Of a stretch of DNA of 10,664 nt, positions 1 through 10,664 are shown one piece after another (within the stretch, counting starts at the first letter, position 1; every line of letters starts with the position of its first letter). Origin of the DNA: Verrucomicrobiota bacterium (GTDB lineage Bacteria; Verrucomicrobiota; Verrucomicrobiia; Verrucomicrobiales; Verrucomicrobiaceae); assembly GCA_009885275.1 (NCBI GenBank), contig VFKY01000025.1, forward strand, positions 1-10,664, written 5' to 3'. A program made the position numbers and the translations under genes. The notes below the pieces were generated by a model. That model had not been told where the DNA came from, searched no databases, and worked only from the letters and a program-made list of their open reading frames with translations.

Positions 1-930
1 AGACCCTTCGTTTTGAGGTGTGATCCTCCATCGATAGGGCAAGCTTGCGGTCAGGATGGCAACGATGGTTCGGCGCAACTCCATGTCTTTGGCAGAGAGT
101 AAGGGGGTGGTCTTCATCGTGGGACCTGATTTGACGCTGCCATCGGTTTCCTGAGCTTTGACAATTTCCTGCACTGCTCCTTGCATGAGGGCCTTCGTAA
201 GATCGGGATATTTTCTTGTGGCGGTGGGAAAAAGCAGCCAGTGCTCAAGCGAGCTGGTCTCGCTCCAAGAAAACTTCGCCGCCGTGGCGAGATCGCGATA
301 CCGTTTGACCACCGTTGTTGTAGCGGATCGGGCAGGCTCGGCGAATGAGGAACGGGAGTCACAGACATTGACCGCGATTGCCGCGCGCAAGAGCGCTACG
401 TCCGGAGCGAGGTTCTGAGGAGGCGTTGTCTCGATGAAGTATTTTATGGTTCGCCCCAGAGCGGGATGAAGGTTTTCGATTTTCAGGCTTGTGACTTTTG
501 CGGTGATCATCGCTTCGATACATTGCCCGGTGATGAGACAACCTTCCTCATCCTCTGCTCCCCAGGTGCCGTTGGGGAGTTGACGGTTGATGACACTTGA
601 AATGCAAGCTTCAAAATTTTCCCTTAAGCCTGGCAAACGGCGTGATCCCATCCTTGATAGCATATAAAGCTCCCCCAGCGCTTGCGTCGCAAGTGCCGCT
701 TCTTTGAGGGAGCGTTTCTCTGGCGGAGACTTCTTAAGCTGCTCAGCCATCCACAGATAGGCCTTCATGACAGTGTCTCCATAGAATGGAGATTCCGCAG
801 TCTCACAACGAGCCAGGTAACTCAGCAGTGCCAGCAAGGTAGTTTCAAGAGATGAGGTGTCTCCCCATGAACCATCCGGATTCTGAGTGGCCTTCAAGAA
901 ATCCCACCCACGAGTGGCCATCCGCTCTTG
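1..930 (-). other. Alpha/alpha-toroid (prenyltransferase/squalene-cyclase-like repeat) domain, partial
   Basis: From about residue 408 the protein consists of alternating amphipathic helices. Two clear QW-type turns, x-P-[DN]-G-[ST]-W-G, are centred on Trp429 and Trp530, and a weaker third (ETDGS) lies at 668-672. The spacing of about 100 and 140 residues suggests paired-helix repeats. The visible part shows neither the catalytic acid motif of squalene-hopene cyclases nor an obvious zinc site, so a structural or binding role is as likely as catalysis. More repeats may follow beyond the left edge. Confidence 0.6.
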
Positions 931-2151
931 TTCCTGAGTGCCGCCATACTCTTTTAATGCATTGAGGCGTTCTGCCATGGAACAACGGGATTTGTAGCTG
1001 GGGGGTAAGGAAAGAAAACCCTCCCCCGTGTAACCGGATGACGGCTTGAATGCTCCTTCACCGTCCACATACGCGACGAAGTAAGGCAGAGGTGCCTCGT
1101 CACGCCAAGCCACCACAAAGAACGGTTCATCAAAGACGAAGGCGCGTTTATGAGGGGGCTTGGGGGGCACTCCACCAATACCGATACCCTTACCAAACCC
1201 CACGATCTTCACGCCTTTCTCATCCATGTCGAACTGGACGGCATGGGAAGCGTGGACAAATTCCTGAGGCGGCACTTTGCCCGGCACCTGAAACGAACCC
1301 TGCAAATCGCCCAAGTGCTGCGTTTTACCTGAGAAGTGCACCTCGGGGATTTCCAGGAGATCACCGTTCCCAAAGTGTCCAGCGGTCTTATCACCACCAG
1401 CGATGCGTGACTTCAGTTCTGTCTTTGCGCGCTGGATCTCATCCATCGTTTGCGCCATAGAAGTGATGTATTCTTTGTTCTCCCTCGGAATTCTCGTGCA
1501 GAGATAGAGGTGTTCACCGGGGACGTTTGATTGGATGGCTATGATGGTGTTGGGAGATTTGTATCGAAGGACCTGGACGACACCGCTGAACTTGTCCGCC
1601 CAATCTGCAGGGGTGCCGAAGCACTTGATGGCATGCTTGTTTCCCAGCCCATCTTTGAAAAGCATTGCCCAGTCGCGTTGAGGAAGGAACTCCGGTTCAA
1701 ATCGCAAGTTTTGCACCAACTTACAAAAAGCAAACCATGACACATCATAGGTTGCGTGAAGAAGTGCATCGAGTTCAGGCCAGTTTTCGTCGAACTTCTT
1801 TTTCACTTGAGCCTGGGCTGCCTGAATAGAGGCTCTGCTTCCATCGCCGGAGATGACGAGGTAGCCGTCCTTGGGGAGGATGACGGCCGGATCCTGTTTC
1901 CAGGCATTGAGTTTATTCGCCAGTTTTGATTCCGGCGTGAGGACGATACTGTCAGTGCCGAGATGATCGCACAACTCCAGCCACATCGTGGGCATGGCGG
2001 CTGACCAGGCCACGACCTTGCCGGGTTGCACCTCGGAATCGAGGGTGGGCACCACGATCACGGAAGGTCCGACGGACGCGGGTTCTTGTCCCGATGCGGG
2101 AAGGATCAGCAGGGACAGGCCACAGAGAGGAACCAGGAGTCTTCGTTTCAT
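1..2151 (-). CDS. Exported serpin-like / alpha-toroid fusion protein, C-terminus cut by window edge
   Basis: The frame is open from an ATG at 2151 to base 1 (717 codons, no stop), so the 3' end lies outside the window. Residues 1-21 are a signal peptide (MKRR, then a Leu-rich core ending ASGQ), which predicts export. Residues about 45-362 look like a diverged serpin. A His-Ala-Val-x-Phe strand at 303-307 leads to a hinge Glu311-Lys312-Gly313, a loop of about 15 residues, Pro329-Pro330, and a closing FDEPFF strand at 340-345, in the order and spacing of the serpin reactive-centre loop. The hinge lacks the small residues (Thr/Ser, then Ala) of inhibitory serpins, so inhibition is doubtful. Residues about 408-717 are mostly helical with QW-type repeats, QNPDGSWG (423-430), LPNGTWG (about 525-531) and QETDGS (667-672), as in squalene-cyclase/prenyltransferase toroids. 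No DxDD acid motif and no thioester GCGEQ is visible. No clear ribosome binding site precedes the ATG. The gene is certain. The toroid call is fairly sure, and the serpin call is by motif recognition only. Confidence 0.8.
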   Translation of the reverse strand, partial: MKRRLLVPLCGLSLLILPASGQEPASVGPSVIVVPTLDSEVQPGKVVAWSAAMPTMWLELCDHLGTDSIVLTPESKLANKLNAWKQDPAVILPKDGYLVISGDGSRASIQAAQAQVKKKFDENWPELDALLHATYDVSWFAFCKLVQNLRFEPEFLPQRDWAMLFKDGLGNKHAIKCFGTPADWADKFSGVVQVLRYKSPNTIIAIQSNVPGEHLYLCTRIPRENKEYITSMAQTMDEIQRAKTELKSRIAGGDKTAGHFGNGDLLEIPEVHFSGKTQHLGDLQGSFQVPGKVPPQEFVHASHAVQFDMDEKGVKIVGFGKGIGIGGVPPKPPHKRAFVFDEPFFVVAWRDEAPLPYFVAYVDGEGAFKPSSGYTGEGFLSLPPSYKSRCSMAERLNALKEYGGTQEQERMATRGWDFLKATQNPDGSWGDTSSLETTLLALLSYLARCETAESPFYGDTVMKAYLWMAEQLKKSPPEKRSLKEAALATQALGELYMLSRMGSRRLPGLRENFEACISSVINRQLPNGTWGAEDEEGCLITGQCIEAMITAKVTSLKIENLHPALGRTIKYFIETTPPQNLAPDVALLRAAIAVNVCDSRSSFAEPARSATTTVVKRYRDLATAAKFSWSETSSLEHWLLFPTATRKYPDLTKALMQGAVQEIVKAQETDGSVKSGPTMKTTPLLSAKDMELRRTIVAILTASLPYRWRITPQNEGS
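1066..2019 (-). other. Serpin-like domain region with degenerate reactive-centre loop
   Basis: This spans residues about 45-362 of the exported protein. Its C-terminal part can be laid against human alpha-1-antitrypsin from memory: EKG hinge, loop of nearly the same length, PP, a few residues, then F-x-x-x-PF. Upstream pieces are consistent with serpin strands: an Asn-Leu-x-Phe-x-x-x-Phe stretch near 150-160, and a VLRY segment followed by a hydrophobic strand and Pro. P14 is Val314 and P13 is Lys315, and the loop is rich in Gly and Ile (318-327). By established serpin rules, bulky or charged residues at P14-P9 oppose loop insertion, so a non-inhibitory binding role is more likely. The domain limits are approximate. 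Confidence 0.5.
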
Positions 2152-2494: not shown

Positions 2495-2965
2495 TCACTT
2501 TTCCACACTGTCCTTGGCCTTGTCGAGTGAGTCCATGACCCAATCGTAGAGACCTGGTTCTTTAATTTCTCGGGAGCCGGCGACGTTGAGTCTTTTGACG
2601 CGATGTTTTTCAATGAAGGCGATCAGTTTTTCGGAAGCCGCGAGGATCCCTTTGTGCAAATGGAGGAAGGGCTTTTTATGCTTTCTTGCATAGGTGAGTG
2701 TCTTTTGAGCTCCGCCTGTAGCTTTGGGAGCCAATGTGAAAACTACCGTTGCATCGGAGTCGCGCACATTCCATTCGGTGCGTTCAAGGTATTCCTCAGT
2801 CACGGTTTCCTTGAGTTGGTATTTTTCATCAAGTGATCCATCAAGAGCAATGCGTCCCTTGGGGCACCAACCTCCATGGGGCAGGTTGTGTTTGATGGCC
2901 CAGTCGAGTGCGGCGCGATGGGCGCCAGTCTGGCCACCACTGATGATTACGATTTTGAGTTCCAT
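2495..2965 (-). CDS. Putative molybdenum carrier family protein (SLOG/YpsA-like Rossmann fold)
   Basis: The product has 156 residues, full length for this small single-domain family. The N-terminal strand and glycine loop, IVIISGGQTG (residues 5-14), is followed by a helix with RAALDWAI (17-24), then HGGWCPKGR (about 30-38), a conserved RTEWNVRDSDAT stretch (about 62-73) and a GGAQKTL segment. These are the family hallmarks of the 'putative molybdenum carrier' proteins, which resemble nucleotide-binding lysine-decarboxylase-like/LOG folds. The family name comes from one molybdenum-binding homologue. Ligand and reaction are uncertain here, and the protein should be cytoplasmic. The usual G-V-D-R after GGQT, as I recall it, reads G-A-H-R here (Ala15, His16). 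The ATG at 2965 starts directly before the first beta strand, which fits. It is divergent from the export operon, and I see no functional link. Confidence 0.85.
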   Translation of the reverse strand: MELKIVIISGGQTGAHRAALDWAIKHNLPHGGWCPKGRIALDGSLDEKYQLKETVTEEYLERTEWNVRDSDATVVFTLAPKATGGAQKTLTYARKHKKPFLHLHKGILAASEKLIAFIEKHRVKRLNVAGSREIKEPGLYDWVMDSLDKAKDSVEK

Positions 2966-3331: not shown

Positions 3332-4978
3332 ATGCGTACCAAGTTTCAAAATAAAGGGCGATCTATCCGTAAGATTAGCATGAGAATGGTTCTTGCTGGT
3401 TTTCTGGTAGCAGGCCAAGCCGAAGCTCAAGAAGCCTTTGAAAGTATTTCATTACAGGCAGCCATTGCACGGGCGCTTGATAACAATTACGAGGTTTCAA
3501 TACAACGCCTTAATCCCCTGATTCAGGATGAGCGATTGAAAATGGCGCAAGCGGTGTTTGATGTGAGGTTTGAATCGTCCTATTCCTTTCAATCCATCGA
3601 TACCCCTCAGAATGCTCAGGACTTTGTAGCAACAGGCGGTGGGGTCGCAAATTTCTCCGATACAGAATTTGGAGCAGATGGGACAACTGCTCCTGCGACT
3701 GCAATCCTTCTCGAGCCCAACATCTATGAAGAACAAAACCATATTGGACGAGCTGCCTTTATCAAAAGATTTAGCACCGGCACAAGCGTGGAGTTGGGGT
3801 CTACTCTTCGGGTACTAGATAACAGTTTAAATCGACAAAGCGCCTCTTCATTATTCAATCCTGAATTTGAGACGTTTTCTGGCATCACATTAACTCAGTC
3901 GCTTCTGAAAGACTTCGGAATGTCTGCGAACCTTACGGAGATAAAAATTGCGAAGTCCAATGTTGCCTTGGCTGAATTGGAATGGCAGTCACGGACGGCC
4001 GCATTAGTGGGTGAGGTAATGAAGCGCTATTATGACGTGGTATTTTCATATGAAAATATGGCCATTCAACGAGATGCGATTGGGCTCGCTGAAAAATTAT
4101 TAGAAGACTCTCGTAAGCGACTCGCAGAAGGAGTGGCTCCACCGAACGATGTGAATGTGGCGGAAGGTGGCGTGTATATCCGTAAAGAAGAAGCGCTTAT
4201 CGCGGAGAACAGTTACATGGAGAGACAGAACGCCTTACAGTTACTTTTTAAAACTGTGGCTGAGGCAGGCAAGGCAGTGAGTATTCGCCCTGTGGATCCT
4301 TTATTAGATAAAATAACGATTCCATCGAGAGCTGAACTTCTTGATTACGCATGGATTAATCGATATGAAATACGTCAGGCTGGAGAGGTCGTAAACCAAA
4401 GACGCGACCAGAGTCATTTCGCCAAGAATCAAGTGAAGCCGAGATTGGATATAGTCGCTAGCGCTGGCATGCATGGACTTGATGGTGGAGTTTCCGAGTC
4501 CTACAGTCGCGCTTATGAAGGGCAGGGGCCGGAGTGGGCCGTTGGATTTACTTTTGCTGTGCCGTTAAGCTTTGGCCGTCAGAAAGCTCAATATAGAATG
4601 GCGCAGCATGAAGAAGTTCAAGCCGAGATTGATGTTGAGAGAGTCAAGGTTCAAGTTTCCCTAGAAATCGATACGGTACTAAGTCGATTGGGTACTGATC
4701 AACAACGGTTGACCACAGCACGTAAAAGTCGCGAAGTGGCACTCAAGACACTTGAAGCCGAAACCTTGAGACTCAAGGAGGGTGTATCCACCAGCTTTCA
4801 AGTTCTCGAATATCAAAAAGAGTACGCGAAGACACGCAGTCGTGAAGTCGCAGCATTGGCGGACATGAACAAAGACATGGTGGATATCTGGTTAACGACG
4901 AGTCAATTGTTAGAGAAAAGAAACATTGCTATCGCTAGGCCTGAACCAGTGAAGAAAGTAAAAGGGAAATCGAATTAA
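3332..4978 (+). CDS. TolC-family outer-membrane efflux/secretion channel
   Basis: The product has 548 residues, the usual size for the family. With the ATG at 3332 it has a basic start (residues 1-18), a hydrophobic core MVLAGFLVAG (19-28) and a cleavage site after AEA (about 30-32), so it is exported. The frame is open back to 3164, which would bury the signal peptide 56 residues further in, so I prefer 3332; 3380 is also possible. Two outer-membrane efflux repeats are visible. Residues about 38-310 begin with SLQAAIARALDNNYEV, and ITLTQSLLKDFG (185-196) precedes long alpha-barrel helices. Residues about 335-530 hold the second beta hairpin (AVGFTFAVPLSFG, 403-415) and the coiled coil with the family-typical LKEGVSTSFQVLEYQKEYA (481-499). 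A polar stretch at 85-140 probably forms the surface loop of the first hairpin. It should form the trimeric outer-membrane channel for the adaptors encoded downstream. The C-terminus is Lys-rich. Confidence 0.92.
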   Translation: MRTKFQNKGRSIRKISMRMVLAGFLVAGQAEAQEAFESISLQAAIARALDNNYEVSIQRLNPLIQDERLKMAQAVFDVRFESSYSFQSIDTPQNAQDFVATGGGVANFSDTEFGADGTTAPATAILLEPNIYEEQNHIGRAAFIKRFSTGTSVELGSTLRVLDNSLNRQSASSLFNPEFETFSGITLTQSLLKDFGMSANLTEIKIAKSNVALAELEWQSRTAALVGEVMKRYYDVVFSYENMAIQRDAIGLAEKLLEDSRKRLAEGVAPPNDVNVAEGGVYIRKEEALIAENSYMERQNALQLLFKTVAEAGKAVSIRPVDPLLDKITIPSRAELLDYAWINRYEIRQAGEVVNQRRDQSHFAKNQVKPRLDIVASAGMHGLDGGVSESYSRAYEGQGPEWAVGFTFAVPLSFGRQKAQYRMAQHEEVQAEIDVERVKVQVSLEIDTVLSRLGTDQQRLTTARKSREVALKTLEAETLRLKEGVSTSFQVLEYQKEYAKTRSREVAALADMNKDMVDIWLTTSQLLEKRNIAIARPEPVKKVKGKSN

Positions 4979-5029
4979 AAAACTTTCTATCAGGATTGCT
5001 ATTAACTGAGCAGGTGGACAGACTGTGCC

Positions 5030-5854
5030 GTGATCAACGATTTCATTATGTGGAGCAATTTTTCAAGTCCAGTCATCAGCTTCCCTGAACGCTATAAAAT
5101 ATGCTTGAGCATAATCATCATTTGCTTGGTGACGGCATCAGGCGGTGGATTTGCACAAACGGTTTCAATTGATGGTGTGGTGAAGCCATTTAAGTCTGTG
5201 ATCATCAGCGCTTCCTTGCGTGAGGTCGTTCGAAAAATCGAAGTGTCAGAAGGTGATCGTATTAAAGAAGGACAAATACTCATTCGTTTGGAGTCGGAAA
5301 AACAGCGTCTTGCGGTAGAGCGTTATGAACTGATGATTACGAAGGCGACCTTTGATCAAAAAGCCGCGCAACGTTTATTCGAACAAAATGTTGCGAGCCG
5401 AGATGATGCTTTAAACAAAGAAATAGAATTGAAGCGTCTTCAGGTTGAGCAGAACATCGCCAAGGCAGAGATTGCGGAACGCGAGATTAAATCACCGCTC
5501 AACGGAGTGGTCGTACGCAAGCTCAAGGAATCAGGTGAGTCCGTCAGTGAGGTGGAGCCCATCTTGCAGATCATGGAAAATGATCGACTACTCTTGTTGT
5601 TCTATCTTGATGCCAACATGTTGGCATCAGTGAAAATTGGTCAGGAGCTAAACACCAGGTATCCTGAACTTTCTGCCAAGACGGTTAAAAAGGCGGTAGT
5701 AGATTTTATCGATCCAGAAGTGGATGCTCGCAGCGGTTTGTTTCGTGTCCGTTTACTCCTGGACAACAAGGATGAATCCGTCAAACCGGGGATGAGAGTG
5801 CAGGCTGAGTTTCCTGTTCTCGCGGTGGGCAAGACAGGGCTCAAGCAGCAGTAA
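5030..5854 (+). CDS. Soluble periplasmic adaptor (RND/HlyD-type membrane fusion protein)
   Basis: The product has 274 residues, short for an adaptor. The GTG at 5030 has AGGTGG at 5012-5017, 12 bases upstream; the ATG at 5048 (residue 7) is an alternative. Both leave a signal peptide with hydrophobic core ICLSIIIICLVTASGGG (24-40) and a likely cut after FAQ (41-43). The first lipoyl half-motif lies at about 58-88 (VRKIEVSEGDRIKEGQILIRLES). A short alpha-helical hairpin follows at 89-150. The second lipoyl half is IKSPLNGVVVRKLKESGESV (153-172), then a beta-barrel domain ends with the family-typical DPEVDARSGLFRVRL and KPGMRVQAEF (228-261). It should bridge an inner-membrane partner and the TolC-like channel in the periplasm. 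No typical RND pump gene is adjacent, so it probably works with the two other adaptor-containing proteins of this operon. Confidence 0.9.
   Translation: MINDFIMWSNFSSPVISFPERYKICLSIIIICLVTASGGGFAQTVSIDGVVKPFKSVIISASLREVVRKIEVSEGDRIKEGQILIRLESEKQRLAVERYELMITKATFDQKAAQRLFEQNVASRDDALNKEIELKRLQVEQNIAKAEIAEREIKSPLNGVVVRKLKESGESVSEVEPILQIMENDRLLLLFYLDANMLASVKIGQELNTRYPELSAKTVKKAVVDFIDPEVDARSGLFRVRLLLDNKDESVKPGMRVQAEFPVLAVGKTGLKQQ
5608..5629. repeat. Perfect 22-base palindrome inside the adaptor gene
   Basis: TGATGCCAACA (5608-5618) is followed immediately by its exact reverse complement TGTTGGCATCA (5619-5629). As RNA it could form a 9-bp stem with a CATG loop. It lies in codons for Asp-Ala-Asn-Met-Leu-Ala-Ser of the beta-barrel domain. 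It could be chance, an operator-like dyad, or an RNA structure that affects expression of the distal genes. Confidence 0.6.
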
Positions 5855-5904
5855 TCGTTACGAGGATAAATCCAGTAAGGGTATCAATAGTTTAAGTATG
5901 AAGC

Positions 5905-7725
5905 ATGAAATCTGACCCCCAAAAATCAGAGTCGAATCCAGTTTTTGAATCGCTGTCTTCTTTTGATGGAGAACCTTCTGTGTTCTGGGGCAAGCTCGCC
6001 GAGTACGCCCGTGGCGTGTTTCATGCGCAAGCCATTTGTCTGTTGGTGGAGACGAGTCAGGGAATGGATTTGCGAGTTCTAGCACAAACCCCAGCAGGGG
6101 CTTCACGACGAATGGGAGGTGTGTCTGAAGAGTTACGGGCACTTACTGGTTACGAGCCAGTGCCGCTTGTTTCCGTAAAGTCTGCCGACATGATTGGTTT
6201 GAATTTGCCATCGCATGAGGGGGCTAATATTTGGTTGGTGGCAGACTTTGATCGAAATGGTGTGCCTGCGGAAAAAAAAGAACTCCATGATGCGGCAAAA
6301 GATATCAGGGTATTGGCCGAGCTATTTCAGACACGGCGCCTTGAAAAAAGAACCCAGCAAAAACTGCTAACGTTGTCCGAAGTGTTGGGGATTGGGTTGG
6401 CGTTGGGGGAAAGTAATTATTTTAGTGAGGCTGCATTACGGGTTTGCAATGAGGTGGCAGCTCAAATGGTAGCGACTCGCGTTTCGCTGACATGGTTGGA
6501 AGGTAACCAACTACAGATTCAAGCGGTTAGCCATGGCGGTCGGATTTCCAAAGAATCAGAGGAAGCCAAGCTTTTGGAGCGCCTGATGGAGGAGTCCATG
6601 GATCAGGACAACGAGGCGGCTTATCCTCCGATTGAGGGGAGCACGGTGATTACACGTGAGCATCGTCTCTTTTCAAAAGCGCATGACGATGTTTCGGTTC
6701 TCAGTGTTCCCTTGCGTGGCACAAAAGGGGTATGCGGGGTGCTGTGCGTGGAAAAGGCATGTGAAGATGGCAAGTGGTTGCTGCCGGAGTTGGAAAAGCT
6801 TCGTCTCATGACGGATCTTTTTGCGTCTCGTCTTGATGATCTTCATGATAAGACGGGCTGGTTTGGTCGCAGAATCTGGAGACGCACCAGAACTTGGGCT
6901 GCTGGTTTTTTAGGGCCGGAGCACACAGGTTGGAAGCTTGCGGGTGTGACTCTCTTACTGGCGCTCCTATTCATGGCCATTGTGCCTATGGAACATAAAG
7001 TGAAGGCGCCCTTTATTTTGAAGACGGATGCCGCAGCGAGGATCACCGCGCCATTTCCAGGCTATATTGATAAGGTGACTTTTCACTTGGGCGATACTGC
7101 CGTGCGTGGTCAGTTGCTGGTGGGATTGGATCAGCGTGAACTATTGTTGCAACAATCAGATACTGTCGCAGGACGAAACAAGAGCGAGCGTGAATCGCGC
7201 AGCTTTGAAGCAGAAGGCAAGCTTGCCCAAATGTTGGTCGCCAAGGCAGAGCAACAACAAGCTGAGGCTAAACTTCTCATTATTGCTCATCGCTTGGCTC
7301 AGACTCAAATAGGAGCGCCCTTCGATGGAGTGGTGGTTGAAGGTGAACTTAGGGAGAAACTTTCCTCACCGGTTCAGGTGGGAGAAACGCTGTTCAAGAT
7401 TGTGCAGTTGCGTGATCTATTTGGTCAGATTCAGGTTGATGAGCGCGATGTTTCTTATCTATCTGCGGGGCTTGATGGGGAGCTGGCCTTCTCCAGTCGT
7501 CCTAGTGAAAAGTTTTCCGTAAGCGTTGATCGTTTTGAACCGGTGGCGGAAGTTAGATCAGAAGGGAATATTTTTCTACTGCGTGCTAAAATTCATGGGG
7601 AGCCGCAGAGTTGGTGGCGTCCCGGCATGAGTGGCATTTGTAAAATCAATGCAGGCAAGCGTTCTATTCTTTGGATCGTATCACATCGAATTATTGAAGT
7701 CGTTCGTCTTTGGTTGTGGGTATAA
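5905..7725 (+). CDS. GAF-domain protein fused to a membrane-anchored HlyD-type periplasmic adaptor
   Basis: The product has 606 residues. The N-terminal half lacks a signal peptide and should be cytoplasmic. A weaker GAF-like region lies at about 24-145, followed by a helix, and a clearer GAF domain at about 155-312 (core strands VSLTWLEGNQLQIQAV at 193-208 and VSVLSVPLRGTKGVCGVLCVEK at 263-284). One membrane helix follows (about 344-361). The periplasmic part starts with a lipoyl half-motif (ITAPFPGYIDKVTFHLGDTAVRGQLLVGLD, 380-409), then a short coiled coil (about 425-465), the second lipoyl half (IGAPFDGVVVEGEL, 469-482) and a beta barrel (about 500-580). It ends with RSILWIVSHRIIEVVRLWLW, a tail I associate with adaptors encoded beside M50 proteins. 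It probably senses a cytoplasmic small molecule or state and couples it to the export complex. The ATG at 5905 is the only good start. The next gene begins 4 bases after the stop, which suggests coupled translation. Confidence 0.88.
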   Translation: MKSDPQKSESNPVFESLSSFDGEPSVFWGKLAEYARGVFHAQAICLLVETSQGMDLRVLAQTPAGASRRMGGVSEELRALTGYEPVPLVSVKSADMIGLNLPSHEGANIWLVADFDRNGVPAEKKELHDAAKDIRVLAELFQTRRLEKRTQQKLLTLSEVLGIGLALGESNYFSEAALRVCNEVAAQMVATRVSLTWLEGNQLQIQAVSHGGRISKESEEAKLLERLMEESMDQDNEAAYPPIEGSTVITREHRLFSKAHDDVSVLSVPLRGTKGVCGVLCVEKACEDGKWLLPELEKLRLMTDLFASRLDDLHDKTGWFGRRIWRRTRTWAAGFLGPEHTGWKLAGVTLLLALLFMAIVPMEHKVKAPFILKTDAAARITAPFPGYIDKVTFHLGDTAVRGQLLVGLDQRELLLQQSDTVAGRNKSERESRSFEAEGKLAQMLVAKAEQQQAEAKLLIIAHRLAQTQIGAPFDGVVVEGELREKLSSPVQVGETLFKIVQLRDLFGQIQVDERDVSYLSAGLDGELAFSSRPSEKFSVSVDRFEPVAEVRSEGNIFLLRAKIHGEPQSWWRPGMSGICKINAGKRSILWIVSHRIIEVVRLWLWV

Positions 7726-7729
7726 GAAT

Positions 7730-9940
7730 ATGAGCAGTGCGTCATCAACTTTTGACGAATCGTGGCACCGCGTTGAAGGGCGACTGGTGCGATTGCGCCC
7801 CGGTATCGAAATTTTCGCTCAACAGTTTCGTGGCCAGCGCTGGTATGTGGTTCGAGATGCCTTGGGAAATAGATTTTTCAGAATCCGCCCGCCCGCCTAT
7901 CGATTTATCTGTGAACTTGAGCGCAGTGATACGGTAGGGGAAGCGTGGTTGAGAAGTCTGGATGTTGATCCTGACGATGCGCCGGGGCAGAGTGAAGTGG
8001 TTCAATTATTGGCACAGCTTCATCAGTCTGGTTTGTTGCGCAGTGATCTGGAGGGGGATGTTACTTCTCTCTTTGAGACGCAGATGAAGGAGGAAAAAAA
8101 GTTAGTCAGTAGTCAGTGGGCGAACATATTCTTTATGCGCATCCCGTTGTTTAATCCGGATGCATTTTTGAAGGCCACACTTCCATGGGTGGGGTGTATT
8201 ATCTCCAAGTGGGCTTTTATAGTATGGCTGGTGGCTTTGGGTTGGGGTGTAAAAGAGATCGCTGAAAATTGGCAACAATTTACCGCCGAGAGTGGAGCTT
8301 TACTGGGGTCTGCTAATTTGCCATGGCTCTATGCCGTGATGATTATCATTAAAGGTGTGCATGAGTTTGGGCATGGCTATTTCTGCCGCAAGTATGGTGG
8401 GGAAGTGCCGATGATGGGAGTCATGTTACTTTTGTTTAACCCGCTTCCTTATGTGGATGCCTCATCCAGTTGGGCTTTTCGAGAAAAGCACAAGAGAATA
8501 TTGGTGGGGGCTGCAGGCATGTTGGTGGAGCTTTTTCTGGCTTCTATTGCAGCGGTGATATGGGCAAACACTGGTGATGGGGCGACTCATACGATTGCTT
8601 ATAACGCGGTGGTCATTGCATCCGTGGGCACATTGCTTTTCAATCTCAATCCCTTACTGCGTTTCGATGGTTATCATATTCTCTCGGACTTGATCGAGGT
8701 ACCAAACCTCCAAGCTCGCTCAACCAGGGTAGTGGTTTACTTGATGGAGCGGTATGTGTTTAATCTTGAAAACTCGGCAAATCCTGCTGAGACCAGAAAA
8801 GAAACATGGGGACTGGCGACCTATTACTTCGCGTCATTAATATACCGTACAGTTTTGCTAATAGGCATTCTGTTTTTTGTTTCAAAGCAGTTCCTCATCC
8901 TTGGAATCATTCTCGCGCTGGTGTTTGCGGTCCTTTGGCTGGTGATGCCGGTGGCGAAGTCTTTTTCGTATCTTTTATATCAACCCAGATTAGAGCAGAG
9001 AAGAGCTCGAGCTATCGGTATAAGCCTTGGATTGGTGTTGGGGATATTTTTATTACTGGCGTTTCTCCCTGTGCCCAGTCATTTTCGATCGGATGGTGTG
9101 GTTCGATCCAATCCTTTTGCTCACATCTATGCAGGCGCATCGGGTGAATTGGTTGAAATTCTAACTCCTTCGGGAACGATGGTTGAAGAGGGGACACCTT
9201 TGTTGTTACTAAAGAGCTTTGAGCTCGATCAAGAGGTGAAGTTAGTGAATCTTGACTGGAGTATTGCAGAGGCAAATTCTCGTGCATCACTTGAGCAAGA
9301 TCCGGTGCGTTTTTTAACCATGCAGGGATATTTTAAAGCGCTTAAATCCCGTATTGAGAGATTGAATGAAGAGAAGCGATCGCTCGTGGTTCGTGCTTCA
9401 TGCCAGGGACGTTGGGTTGCGCCAGATATAAATACAGCACTTGGATCTACAGTGGCTAGAGGTGTGGAATTGGGAGTAATCCAAGGAGAGAAGCAGCACT
9501 ACTTTTCGGCAGTGGTGCGTCAGGGGGATGTGGCTAGATTATTTTCCGGTAATGTTAAAAAGACCCAAGTGAAAATTCTGGGACAGGAGCAGAAGACATT
9601 GTCGGTGACGGAATTGCAGGCGATTCCTGCTGAGCGCGGTCAATTACCGTCTGCGGCTCTTGGAATCATGGGCGGAGGCTCCTCTGCGGTGGATACAAAG
9701 GAAGATAATATCAGCCGTCGATCTTCATCGGGCTCTGGTTTGTCGGAATCCGAGGGAAGCAGAGGCACGAGGACGACGGAGCCGTTCTTTGAAGTGAGGG
9801 CGACCCTCCAGCCTTTGGAAAACACCTATTTAGTTCATGGGCAACGCGGTGTTGCGCGCATTAATCTGCCATGGGAACCTCTTCTCACGCAATGGAGCAG
9901 AAGCGTGCGCCAATTGTTCCAGCGTAATTATCGTATTTGA
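7730..9940 (+). CDS. M50-family membrane metallopeptidase with PqqD-like N-terminus and C-terminal adaptor domain
   Basis: The product has 736 residues from the ATG at 7730. The frame is open back to 7631, but that would overlap the preceding gene. Residues about 20-105 resemble the PqqD/RRE winged-helix fold (WYVVRDALGNRFFRI, then a TVGEAW helix and VVQLLAQLHQSGLL). Seven or eight membrane helices lie between about 153 and 449. The zinc site of site-2-protease relatives is intact: His211-Glu-x-x-His215 and Asp313 in NLNPLLRFDGYH. After the last helix (428-449) a periplasmic lipoyl-like domain (VVRSNPFAHIYAGASGELVEILTPSGTMVEEGTPLLLL, 457-494) and a beta-barrel region follow, with a coiled-coil linker at about 500-550. 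A Ser/Gly-rich low-complexity insert occupies about 647-684. The end (LPWEPLLTQWSRSVRQLFQR) fits M50-adaptor fusions as I know them. It should sit in the inner membrane. Whether it cleaves the exported substrate or acts only as membrane platform is not shown. Confidence 0.88.
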   Translation: MSSASSTFDESWHRVEGRLVRLRPGIEIFAQQFRGQRWYVVRDALGNRFFRIRPPAYRFICELERSDTVGEAWLRSLDVDPDDAPGQSEVVQLLAQLHQSGLLRSDLEGDVTSLFETQMKEEKKLVSSQWANIFFMRIPLFNPDAFLKATLPWVGCIISKWAFIVWLVALGWGVKEIAENWQQFTAESGALLGSANLPWLYAVMIIIKGVHEFGHGYFCRKYGGEVPMMGVMLLLFNPLPYVDASSSWAFREKHKRILVGAAGMLVELFLASIAAVIWANTGDGATHTIAYNAVVIASVGTLLFNLNPLLRFDGYHILSDLIEVPNLQARSTRVVVYLMERYVFNLENSANPAETRKETWGLATYYFASLIYRTVLLIGILFFVSKQFLILGIILALVFAVLWLVMPVAKSFSYLLYQPRLEQRRARAIGISLGLVLGIFLLLAFLPVPSHFRSDGVVRSNPFAHIYAGASGELVEILTPSGTMVEEGTPLLLLKSFELDQEVKLVNLDWSIAEANSRASLEQDPVRFLTMQGYFKALKSRIERLNEEKRSLVVRASCQGRWVAPDINTALGSTVARGVELGVIQGEKQHYFSAVVRQGDVARLFSGNVKKTQVKILGQEQKTLSVTELQAIPAERGQLPSAALGIMGGGSSAVDTKEDNISRRSSSGSGLSESEGSRGTRTTEPFFEVRATLQPLENTYLVHGQRGVARINLPWEPLLTQWSRSVRQLFQRNYRI

Positions 9941-9970
9941 GTTGAATCAGCAGCATTAAACCAACGACTC

Positions 9971-10664
9971 ATGCCTACTCCAACGGAAACACAGCGAACG
10001 TTGCATGTGCGTAAAAGCAAGTCCGCCCCCTTGGGTATCGATGCCTGGTATTATAGTCTAGTTGGGCGGATAAAGCGTGGTCCATGGGCATTTTCGCGCA
10101 TTGAAATTATGGCGGAGCGCATTGAGTTGCTCAGGGAAGAATTCAATTTGCTCAACAATGGTCAACTTGATGATCGACTACAGCGCCTGCGAGAGCATCG
10201 TCGGCGGTATCCCAAGGATATCGACTCAAAAAAAGAAGAGGGACTGGCGCTTCTGGCAGTGACCGCGAAAAGAGAACTGGGGCTTACTCCCTACAAAGTG
10301 CAGATCATGGCGGCAGCGGCATTGATCGATGGTTTTCTCACGGAGGTCGATACTGGGGAAGGTAAAACTCTGGCACTCTCTCTGGTCGCAGCCTACAATG
10401 CTTGGAGCGGATTACCGTGTCATGTCATCACCGCGAATGATTATCTGGCGGGTCGTGATGCCGAATATTTGAAAGGGTTTTATCTTCGAGTGGGATTGAA
10501 GGTAGGCAAAGTGCTTGGTGAGACCGCAGAACAGGATCGTCGTACTGCATATCAGTGCGATATCACTTATACTACCGCTAAAGAGGTGGCGGCGGATTAT
10601 TTGCGTGACCGTCTGAGGCTATATGGGATGGAAGACATTGGATCACGCCTTTCACTATCGAATC
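9971..10664 (+). CDS. SecA-like preprotein translocase ATPase, C-terminus cut by window edge
   Basis: The 231 visible codons cover the N-terminal part of the SecA motor. Residues about 46-115 carry the helical N-terminus, ending in RELGLTPYKVQIMAAAAL (101-118), the Q-motif region. Walker A is TGEGKT (128-133), then HVITANDYLAGRDAEY (151-166) and DITYTTAKEVAADYLRD (197-213), which correspond to SecA's TVNDYLAxRDAE and DITYGTNNEFGFDYLRD. The usual Met-[KR] before TGEGKT is Val-Asp here, and Gly-Thr-Asn-[Asn-Glu] is replaced by Thr-Ala-Lys-Glu, so it is a diverged paralogue rather than the housekeeping SecA. The N-terminus is about 25 residues longer than E. coli SecA before Walker A. The DEAD box, preprotein-binding and C-terminal zinc regions lie outside the window. 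It starts 30 bases after the M50 gene, which places it in the export operon as its probable ATP-driven motor. No clear ribosome binding site is present. Confidence 0.9.
   Translation, partial: MPTPTETQRTLHVRKSKSAPLGIDAWYYSLVGRIKRGPWAFSRIEIMAERIELLREEFNLLNNGQLDDRLQRLREHRRRYPKDIDSKKEEGLALLAVTAKRELGLTPYKVQIMAAAALIDGFLTEVDTGEGKTLALSLVAAYNAWSGLPCHVITANDYLAGRDAEYLKGFYLRVGLKVGKVLGETAEQDRRTAYQCDITYTTAKEVAADYLRDRLRLYGMEDIGSRLSLSN

Follow-up and report, generated by a model that had tools for sequence, protein, structure and literature searches.

Giant LEPR-XLL proteins accompany a SecA-like, TolC-associated gene cassette that may export them

Introduction

By what route do bacteria export proteins of 5,000-20,000 residues? 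The question is raised here by a contig of a Verrucomicrobiota bacterium (GenBank assembly GCA_009885275.1, contig VFKY01000025.1), the whole of which, 10,664 nucleotides, is referred to as the window (contig C72 of a 2.54 Mb parent genome that is 77% complete in 409 contigs). Its right-hand part encodes a TolC-like outer-membrane factor, two HlyD-type adaptor proteins, an M50 site-2 protease fused to a further adaptor domain, and a SecA-like motor. We report that in related genomes this cassette is paired with genes for giant proteins carrying the LEPR-XLL motif at their N-termini, which suggests that the cassette secretes giant proteins with a common short N-terminal address tag.

The cassette itself is not new, because Kamneva, Poudel and Ward (2015; PMC4452313) have described it. 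In the parts of that article available to us, secondary SecA_DEAD proteins that wholly or mostly lack SecA_SW are assigned to a conserved, type I-related locus with M50-HlyD, GAF-HlyD, HlyD and sometimes OEP genes, and are placed next to actinobacterial SecA2 in a tree; SecA is proposed to be the ATPase and M50 the pore, while the broader biological role is called completely unknown. According to the same paper, Methylobacterium extorquens AM1 carries the locus as META1p2402-2399. The window and its relatives fit this locus, with a SecA_DEAD protein lacking SecA_SW beside M50, HlyD and GAF-HlyD genes. A first-pass annotation of the window, made from the sequence alone, had treated the architecture as unreported; this does not hold, the gene set and a similar proposal having been published in 2015. 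What goes beyond that work is the pairing with LEPR-XLL substrates and the leader-recognition-like, protease and adaptor anatomy of the M50 protein; the first-pass annotation had missed both the giants and the leader-recognition-like domain.

The words giant, LEPR and PqqD are absent from the main text of PMC4452313 (the supplements are not covered by this statement). In the portions seen, LEPR-XLL is mentioned in PMC10868602 and PMC9611531 without a link to an export machine, PMC5313232 merely cites Kamneva et al., PMC2754498 refers to Studholme et al. (2004) for a giant gene of Rhodopirellula that has a novel peptide motif, and PMC6461901 and PMC12288469 mention giant genes and state no export route. 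No publication linking LEPR giants to the SecA-like cassette was found in these partly seen sources, subscription papers and preprints lying outside the scope of the search.

Results

LEPR-XLL giants co-occur with the SecA-like gene

A SecA-like gene is present in 21 of 288 genomes of the phylum, and its products are set apart from housekeeping SecA by score (at least 316 bits, or 272 for the partial copy in the window, versus at most 237). In 19 of these 21 genomes the model LEPR-8K (NCBIfam NF012209, LEPR-XLL) matched above its cut-off in an open frame of at least 1000 amino acids, as against none of the remaining 267 among the matches listed; the two SecA-like genomes without such a frame are G086 and the incomplete genome of the window. 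Eight listed genomes exceed the cut-off and have no SecA-like gene, with frames of only 138-848 amino acids. The contrast corresponds to a Fisher p of about 9e-28 and also holds within family f5 (7/7 versus 0/17, p 3e-6) and inside four genera (g16, g20, g23 and g58); it counts against these figures that the table was built on listed matches naming 27 of the 28 genomes above the cut-off, and that the tests ignore shared ancestry, which inflates genome counts.

The pairing extends to other phyla. Fifty genomes were reached through M50-fusion loci, namely 40 even-numbered loci (L106-L184) and ten odd-numbered loci not titled Verrucomicrobia, a set that overlaps the 288 by at least one genome (the matches of G307 are the same as those of G126). 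A SecA-like match was seen in the fetched locus of 47 of them (none in L142, L157 and L158, and a weak fragment in L174). LEPR-8K exceeded its cut-off in 37 of the 50, 32 having a frame of at least 1000 amino acids. One of these genomes (G323, of locus L176) holds seven LEPR-XLL frames of 4,674-9,787 amino acids.

Giants also adjoin the cassette. Six single-contig genomes together hold 13 LEPR genes, and 6 of these are no more than 10 kb from a cassette, against 0.23 expected (p 4e-8). The order M50, SecA-like, LEPR giant is found in L105, L106 and L110, whose M50 proteins are 60-61% identical to that of the window (L106 and L110 are titled Prosthecobacter sp.). In G217, which belongs to the genus of the window, a SecA-like gene and a LEPR giant point away from each other, about 220 bases apart; the M50 and GAF genes of this genome are of a more distant class and stand on another contig that starts inside a giant-like frame. 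A regular expression found the LEPR motif in the flanks of 27 of 80 named loci, many of which end at contig ends; 27/80 is likely an undercount, because the expression missed G235 and L170, where the motif was seen by eye.

The window contig stops within the SecA-like gene, so the reading of genes downstream for a substrate, which the first-pass annotation had proposed, could be made in relatives, where it yielded LEPR giants, and not in the window itself. Because its closest relatives have that order, the substrate gene of the window is most likely the next one after the SecA-like gene, and we predict a LEPR giant shortly beyond position 10664.

Several observations weigh against a strict pairing. 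Seven of the 13 LEPR genes in single-contig genomes lie more than 10 kb from the cassette: two stand immediately behind an adjacent giant, G186 has two at 25 and 42 kb, and all three in G018 are at least 145 kb away. LEPR-8K stayed below its cut-off in 13 of the 50 M50-fusion-locus genomes and in G086, which carries a SecA-like gene, and was exceeded in 1 of 14 control genomes in both searches (Deinobacterium chartae in one). In the window genome, 77% complete, LEPR-8K matched nothing at E <= 10. A search of it with residues 1-2610 of the G066 giant was also empty, a null result that carries little weight because the genome is incomplete and the search had no positive control. LEPR-like proteins also occur near SecA-free M50 fusions (L062, L064 and L068), and long LEPR-like frames below the cut-off are found in genomes without a SecA-like gene (for example G117, 4014 amino acids; G019, 4656; G287, 4102; G147, 2698). 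Some of the latter may be true variant leaders. Because LEPR-like frames occur without it, the SecA-like gene is possibly dispensable for some LEPR proteins, and to judge from these distributions the leader may predate the cassette and have a wider range.

Individual loci of this kind are as follows. In G086, an exception to the pairing, the SecA-like gene (L188, contig C22) is on a contig without an M50 gene, L049 being contig C80. At G117:C1:2899857 and G147:C119:38514, long frames with LEPR-like starts below the cut-off share a contig with a SecA-free M50 fusion, at distances of about 5 and 10 kb. Short open reading frames (ORFs) with 103-128 residues past a LEPR-like motif are found at L062:932-1763 (two in tandem) and L068:19059-19589, their motifs ending ELFAA or HLFAA..PHH, with a SecA-free M50 fusion nearby. 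Around the SecA-free fusion of L064, LEPR-like ORFs at L064:16491 and L064:6149 run for 472 and 1066 amino acids from the motif.

The giants have a common N-terminal motif

Giant ORFs near cassettes comprise 10,561 amino acids in G066 (directly after the SecA-like gene, in what is, like L105, L106 and L110, one of the nearest relatives), 18,972 in G091, 14,147 in G140, 8,942 in G274, 8,020 in G186, 7,210 in G271 and 4,233 in G235, others being open at contig ends; the longest LEPR-XLL open frame among the matches listed has 20,466 codons (G015:C142:82006). LEPR-8K matched 9/9 giant N-termini, eight above the cut-off. From 38 N-termini, two of them from the SecA-free locus L064, we derived the consensus F-x-[LVI]-E-x-L-E-x-R-[ILV]-L-L-S-[AG]-x-P, located 5-37 residues past the assumed start. 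The idea that the giants are chance open frames was discarded, frames of about 13-57 kb with a common N-terminal motif ruling it out.

By hydropathy, the giants appear mostly to lack a strongly hydrophobic signal-peptide core: a 12-residue stretch with a mean of at least 2.0 occurs in only 1 of the 38 leader regions (median 1.29; the HlyD adaptor of the window reaches 3.15). Against this stands the crudeness of the measure, which is no signal-peptide predictor and gives only 1.93 for the TolC-like protein of the window with its probable signal peptide.

RTX repeats (4e-86) occupy the last 1350 residues of the G066 giant, while no Pfam family matched an inner piece of 5000 residues; the G186 giant ends in DUF11 and SdrD_B, and the C-termini of the listed giants are unlike one another by eye. 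DUF4347 comes next after the motif in two giants, L088:1434 (+) and L048:5058 (-). At L178:1-5397 and L180:2-2914 (titled Chlorobium/Chlorobiaceae), long ORFs of repeat-like sequence end close to the cassette, with N-termini beyond the fetched DNA; they may be related to the known Chlorobium giant proteins. A planctomycete extracellular N-terminal motif in Pfam may be related to LEPR-XLL.

M50 and SecA-like genes are linked across phyla

The M50 protein of the window found matches at E <= 1e-10 in 63 of the 288 genomes. Members of the nearest class (33-64% identity) stand beside GAF-HlyD and SecA-like genes, and mostly also beside HlyD and TolC-like genes; in that locus comparison, only G086 and one contig fragment of G180 had no adjoining SecA-like gene. 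The 80 named loci, the best 80 of 555 confirmed M50 matches, bear titles that include Verrucomicrobia, Kiritimatiellae, Thermodesulfovibrionia, Desulfuromonas, Chlorobiaceae, Fibrobacteres, Elusimicrobia, Spirochaetales and Parendozoicomonas. In 74 of these named relatives the M50 gene is followed by 700 bases or more, and in 71 of the 74 a SecA-like gene is found in the next 1.5 kb, the exceptions being L137, L141 and L158. Because the SecA-like gene follows M50 in 71/74, the linkage is far beyond chance. The first-pass annotation had assumed that the neighbours of the SecA-like family are not random, and the cassette order kept across phyla, together with this adjacency, bears it out. A second, more distant class of M50-HlyD fusions (L052 and L054-L071, plus 42 of the 63 genomes with M50 matches) is mostly without an adjoining SecA-like gene.

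The five genes of the window

Five collinear plus-strand ORFs fill positions 3332-10664, with intergenic gaps of 51, 50, 4 and 30 bases:

3332..4978, + strand: outer-membrane factor (TolC/OEP family), 548 amino acids, ATG at 3332; PF02321 1e-36; TIGR01844 4.7e-18, below cut-off
5030..5854, + strand: HlyD/RND-type periplasmic adaptor, 274 amino acids, GTG start; PF16576 (HlyD_D23) 1.3e-20; TIGR01730 8.8e-37, above cut-off
5905..7725, + strand: GAF-like N-terminal region, transmembrane segment and C-terminal HlyD adaptor; HlyD_D23 1.3e-13; GAF 8.4e-4, below cut-off
7730..9940, + strand: fusion of an RRE-like domain, a site-2 protease and a membrane-fusion protein, 736 amino acids; Peptidase_M50 1.4e-06
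9971..10663, + strand: SecA-like motor, first 231 amino acids, open at contig end; PF07517 (SecA_DEAD) 1.4e-50

Gene order, gaps and the families named in the first-pass annotation (TolC, adaptors, M50, SecA-like) agree with the ORFs and with the Pfam and NCBIfam matches. The TolC-like protein likely has a signal peptide, as judged by eye; the HlyD adaptor has an N-terminal hydrophobic segment (hydropathy peak at residues 22-40), and the GAF-HlyD protein a single transmembrane segment by hydropathy (residues 341-359). A periplasmic adaptor and a TolC-like outer-membrane factor of the type I secretion kind are thus both present in the window. None of the seven scanned window ORFs matched an ABC, RND or MFS transporter family at E <= 0.001, "RND" turning up only within the names of adaptor models, and the earlier statement that the visible part contains no ABC or RND pump stands.

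The M50 protein combines a protease with two further domains

Within the M50 fusion protein three parts can be told apart:

7766..8044, + strand: RRE/PqqD-like domain, about residues 13-105, candidate leader-binding
8303..8884, + strand: Peptidase M50/RseP-like membrane protease core, with HEFGH at 8360-8374 and NPLLRFDG at 8648-8671
9065..9901, + strand: periplasmic membrane-fusion-protein domain, residues 446-724, MacA/AcrA-like fold

The protease site is intact: HExxH and the second motif, N..P....DG, are present, and the zinc and NxNP/D residues are invariant in 28/28 sequences. The core matched the RseP fold in a structure search, the adaptor domain folds resemble MacA/AcrA/MexA, and the best NCBIfam match of the whole protein is the daptide metalloprotease model (1.7e-48, below cut-off).

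Because the adaptor domain fills the fold search of the full model, the N-terminal domain was modelled and searched separately. Its predicted structure has the three-stranded sheet and three-helix winged fold of the RRE/PqqD kind. In a PDB profile search its top matches were TfuB1 (E 0.0054) and PqqD (E 0.0072), with values up to 10 admitted and unrelated chains also present from E 0.4; PF05402 (PqqD) was matched by 10 of 28 sequences at the similarly loose threshold of E <= 1. Other results weigh against the assignment: the window protein itself matches no PqqD model, the similarity to RREs is weak by Foldseek (best E 0.012), and GdmN, which is not an RRE, ties with RREs in VIA-align. Because of this tie, and because the winged folds Rv2067c, MINA53 and NO66 rank next, the fold alone would not settle RRE identity. 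We regard the domain as a candidate leader-binding domain.

The SecA-like motor is shortened

Only 231 N-terminal residues of the SecA-like protein can be read in the window, because the contig stops within the gene; they contain the Walker A motif TGEGKT (10352-10369) and share 58% identity with the SecA-like protein of G066, which is full-length. The rest of the window genome, 77% complete, yielded no second SecA match. SecA_DEAD, the preprotein-binding domain and a second P-loop domain are present in 5/5 full-length relatives, and the Walker A, DEAD box, MAGRGTD and GR..RQG motifs are conserved in the family. SecA_SW was matched in none of the five at E <= 0.001, and the family profile aligns only to residues 16-609 of the 783 residues of 3jv2, Bacillus subtilis SecA. 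The helical wing and the two-helix finger presumably lie beyond residue 609. The SecA-like protein ends at the start of the long scaffold helix, so that wing and two-helix finger appear to be missing. The missing SecA_SW region agrees with what the available part of Kamneva et al. (PMC4452313) reports.

ABC and RND transporters around the cassette

The type I secretion ABC models TIGR03375, TIGR01842 and TIGR01846 gave no match above cut-off in any of the 21 cassette genomes. Two points count against reading much into this: ABC matches below the cut-off occur in 21/21, reaching 448 of the 726 bits for HlyB, and of 14 control genomes only 0, 0 and 1 reached the strict cut-offs.

Downstream of the cassettes, 65 of 77 flanking ORFs were scanned (ten LEPR ORFs, the SecA fragment of L122 and a short ORF of L137 were left out, and the ORF list excluded those of at least 1300 amino acids and those open at the 5' end). 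Among the 25 listed of 87 families (single matches are not all visible there), neither an ABC nor an RND family was common to two or more of the 65; MFS_1 occurred in two. A pump driven by an ABC or RND protein was rejected, with no such gene in the window and none common to at least two flanking ORFs. An ABC or RND gene just downstream, named in the first-pass annotation as a finding that would speak against it, is by the same count not seen in two or more flanking ORFs. Since type I ABC proteins above cut-off and a common flanking ABC or RND family are both wanting, the cassette is the best candidate exporter of giants here, beside which other routes are possible.

The rest of the window

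To the left of the cassette, a 717-amino-acid ORF at 1-2151 (-), open at the contig end, matched neither Pfam nor NCBIfam at 0.001; to the eye, part of it looks like prenyltransferase/terpene-cyclase-like repeats. Positions 2495-2965 (-) encode a circularly permuted YpsA (SLOG) protein (PF12694, 1.3e-49).

Discussion

We think it probable that the products of the five genes form a one-step machine for the export of LEPR-XLL giants. Gene order, domains, intact catalytic motifs, and the co-occurrence and adjacency of leader motif and cassette are computational results; leader binding, cleavage, motor function, the identity of the channel and export as such are inferred from comparison. The giant substrate would present its N-terminal LEPR-XLL leader to the cytoplasmic RRE/PqqD-like domain of the M50 fusion, which would bind it. 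The SecA-like ATPase, with its two nucleotide-binding domains and preprotein-binding domain, would then feed the unfolded chain into the membrane part, where either SecYEG or the M50 bundle might be the channel; the leader would be taken off by the site-2-type zinc protease, and the three HlyD-type domains and the TolC-like channel would convey the chain over the periplasm and the outer membrane. That this amounts to a separate class of secretion system, in which a stripped-down SecA drives one-step export of giants, an RRE borrowed from peptide maturation reads their leader and a site-2 protease joined to the periplasmic conduit trims it, seems to us slightly favoured by the balance of evidence.

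The same data have to be weighed under other readings. The SecA-like protein might be a SecA2-like accessory that works with SecYEG and brings the giants to the periplasm, the HlyD, TolC and M50 proteins performing the outer step or a separate task. All five full-length relatives keep the SecA_DEAD, preprotein-binding and P-loop domains, but the wing and the two-helix finger, which engage SecY, are apparently absent, the profile stopping at about residue 609 without SecA_SW in 5/5, and only 1 of 38 leader regions is strongly hydrophobic. Even with the place beside actinobacterial SecA2 in the tree of Kamneva et al. (PMC4452313, as far as available), we consider this reading unlikely. The RRE-M50 protein could also process small peptides resembling ribosomally synthesized and post-translationally modified peptides (RiPPs), its link to giants being secondary; the RRE-like fold, the daptide metalloprotease match below cut-off and the short LEPR-like ORFs near SecA-free fusions would suit such a role. 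Yet no RiPP-modifying enzyme is among the 25 listed of 87 flanking families, and LEPR frames in SecA-like genomes mostly run to thousands of residues, which makes peptide maturation and export improbable.

Alternatively, the giants might leave by an ordinary ABC-driven type I system encoded elsewhere in the genome, with the cassette doing something else. RTX repeats are present in one giant and, because sub-cut-off ABC matches occur in all 21 genomes and few controls pass the cut-offs, an ABC route keeps some small probability; with no type I ABC protein above cut-off in 21/21 and the giants both co-occurring with and adjoining the SecA-like cassette, we rate it as very improbable. Finally, the MacA/AcrA/MexA-like adaptor folds would be at home in a pump for small-molecule efflux whose protease is regulatory and whose SecA-like neighbour is unrelated. 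The 71/74 adjacency and the tie to LEPR giants leave this reading hardly any credit, and so does the want of any ABC or RND family shared by at least two of the 65 flanking ORFs.

The preferred reading, one-step export of LEPR-XLL giants by the cassette, offers a candidate substrate family for the secretion-like locus of 2015 and a candidate function for the LEPR-XLL motif. If it is true, a leader-recognition fold of RiPP pathways would serve a purpose other than peptide maturation, and a SecA motor, beyond its usual Sec role, would drive export of some of the largest bacterial proteins, with open frames of up to about 20,000 codons.

Among known systems, type I secretion (HlyB-HlyD-TolC, LapBCE, SiiCDF) has in common with the cassette a TolC-like channel, HlyD-type adaptors and a giant candidate substrate, RTX-bearing in one case. 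It differs in that its energised inner-membrane part, an ABC transporter, is absent from the cassette, and in that here the candidate address tag is N-terminal and a protease-adaptor fusion sits in the inner membrane. SecA and accessory SecA2 share the DEAD motor, the preprotein-binding domain and the second nucleotide-binding domain, whereas the SecA-like family stops at the start of the scaffold helix and has no SecA_SW. RRE/PqqD leader-binding proteins and daptide/YydH M50 proteases resemble the RRE-like fold and the M50 core found here, which, in contrast, form a fusion with a membrane-fusion-protein domain and are linked with giant proteins. Known LEPR-XLL (NF012209) proteins carry the motif where the present giants do, at the N-terminus. 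Closest is the secondary SecA_DEAD locus of Kamneva et al., which, in the parts of PMC4452313 available, has the same gene set and much the same proposed function, and to which the present analysis adds the substrate family, the leader motif and the RRE-like domain.

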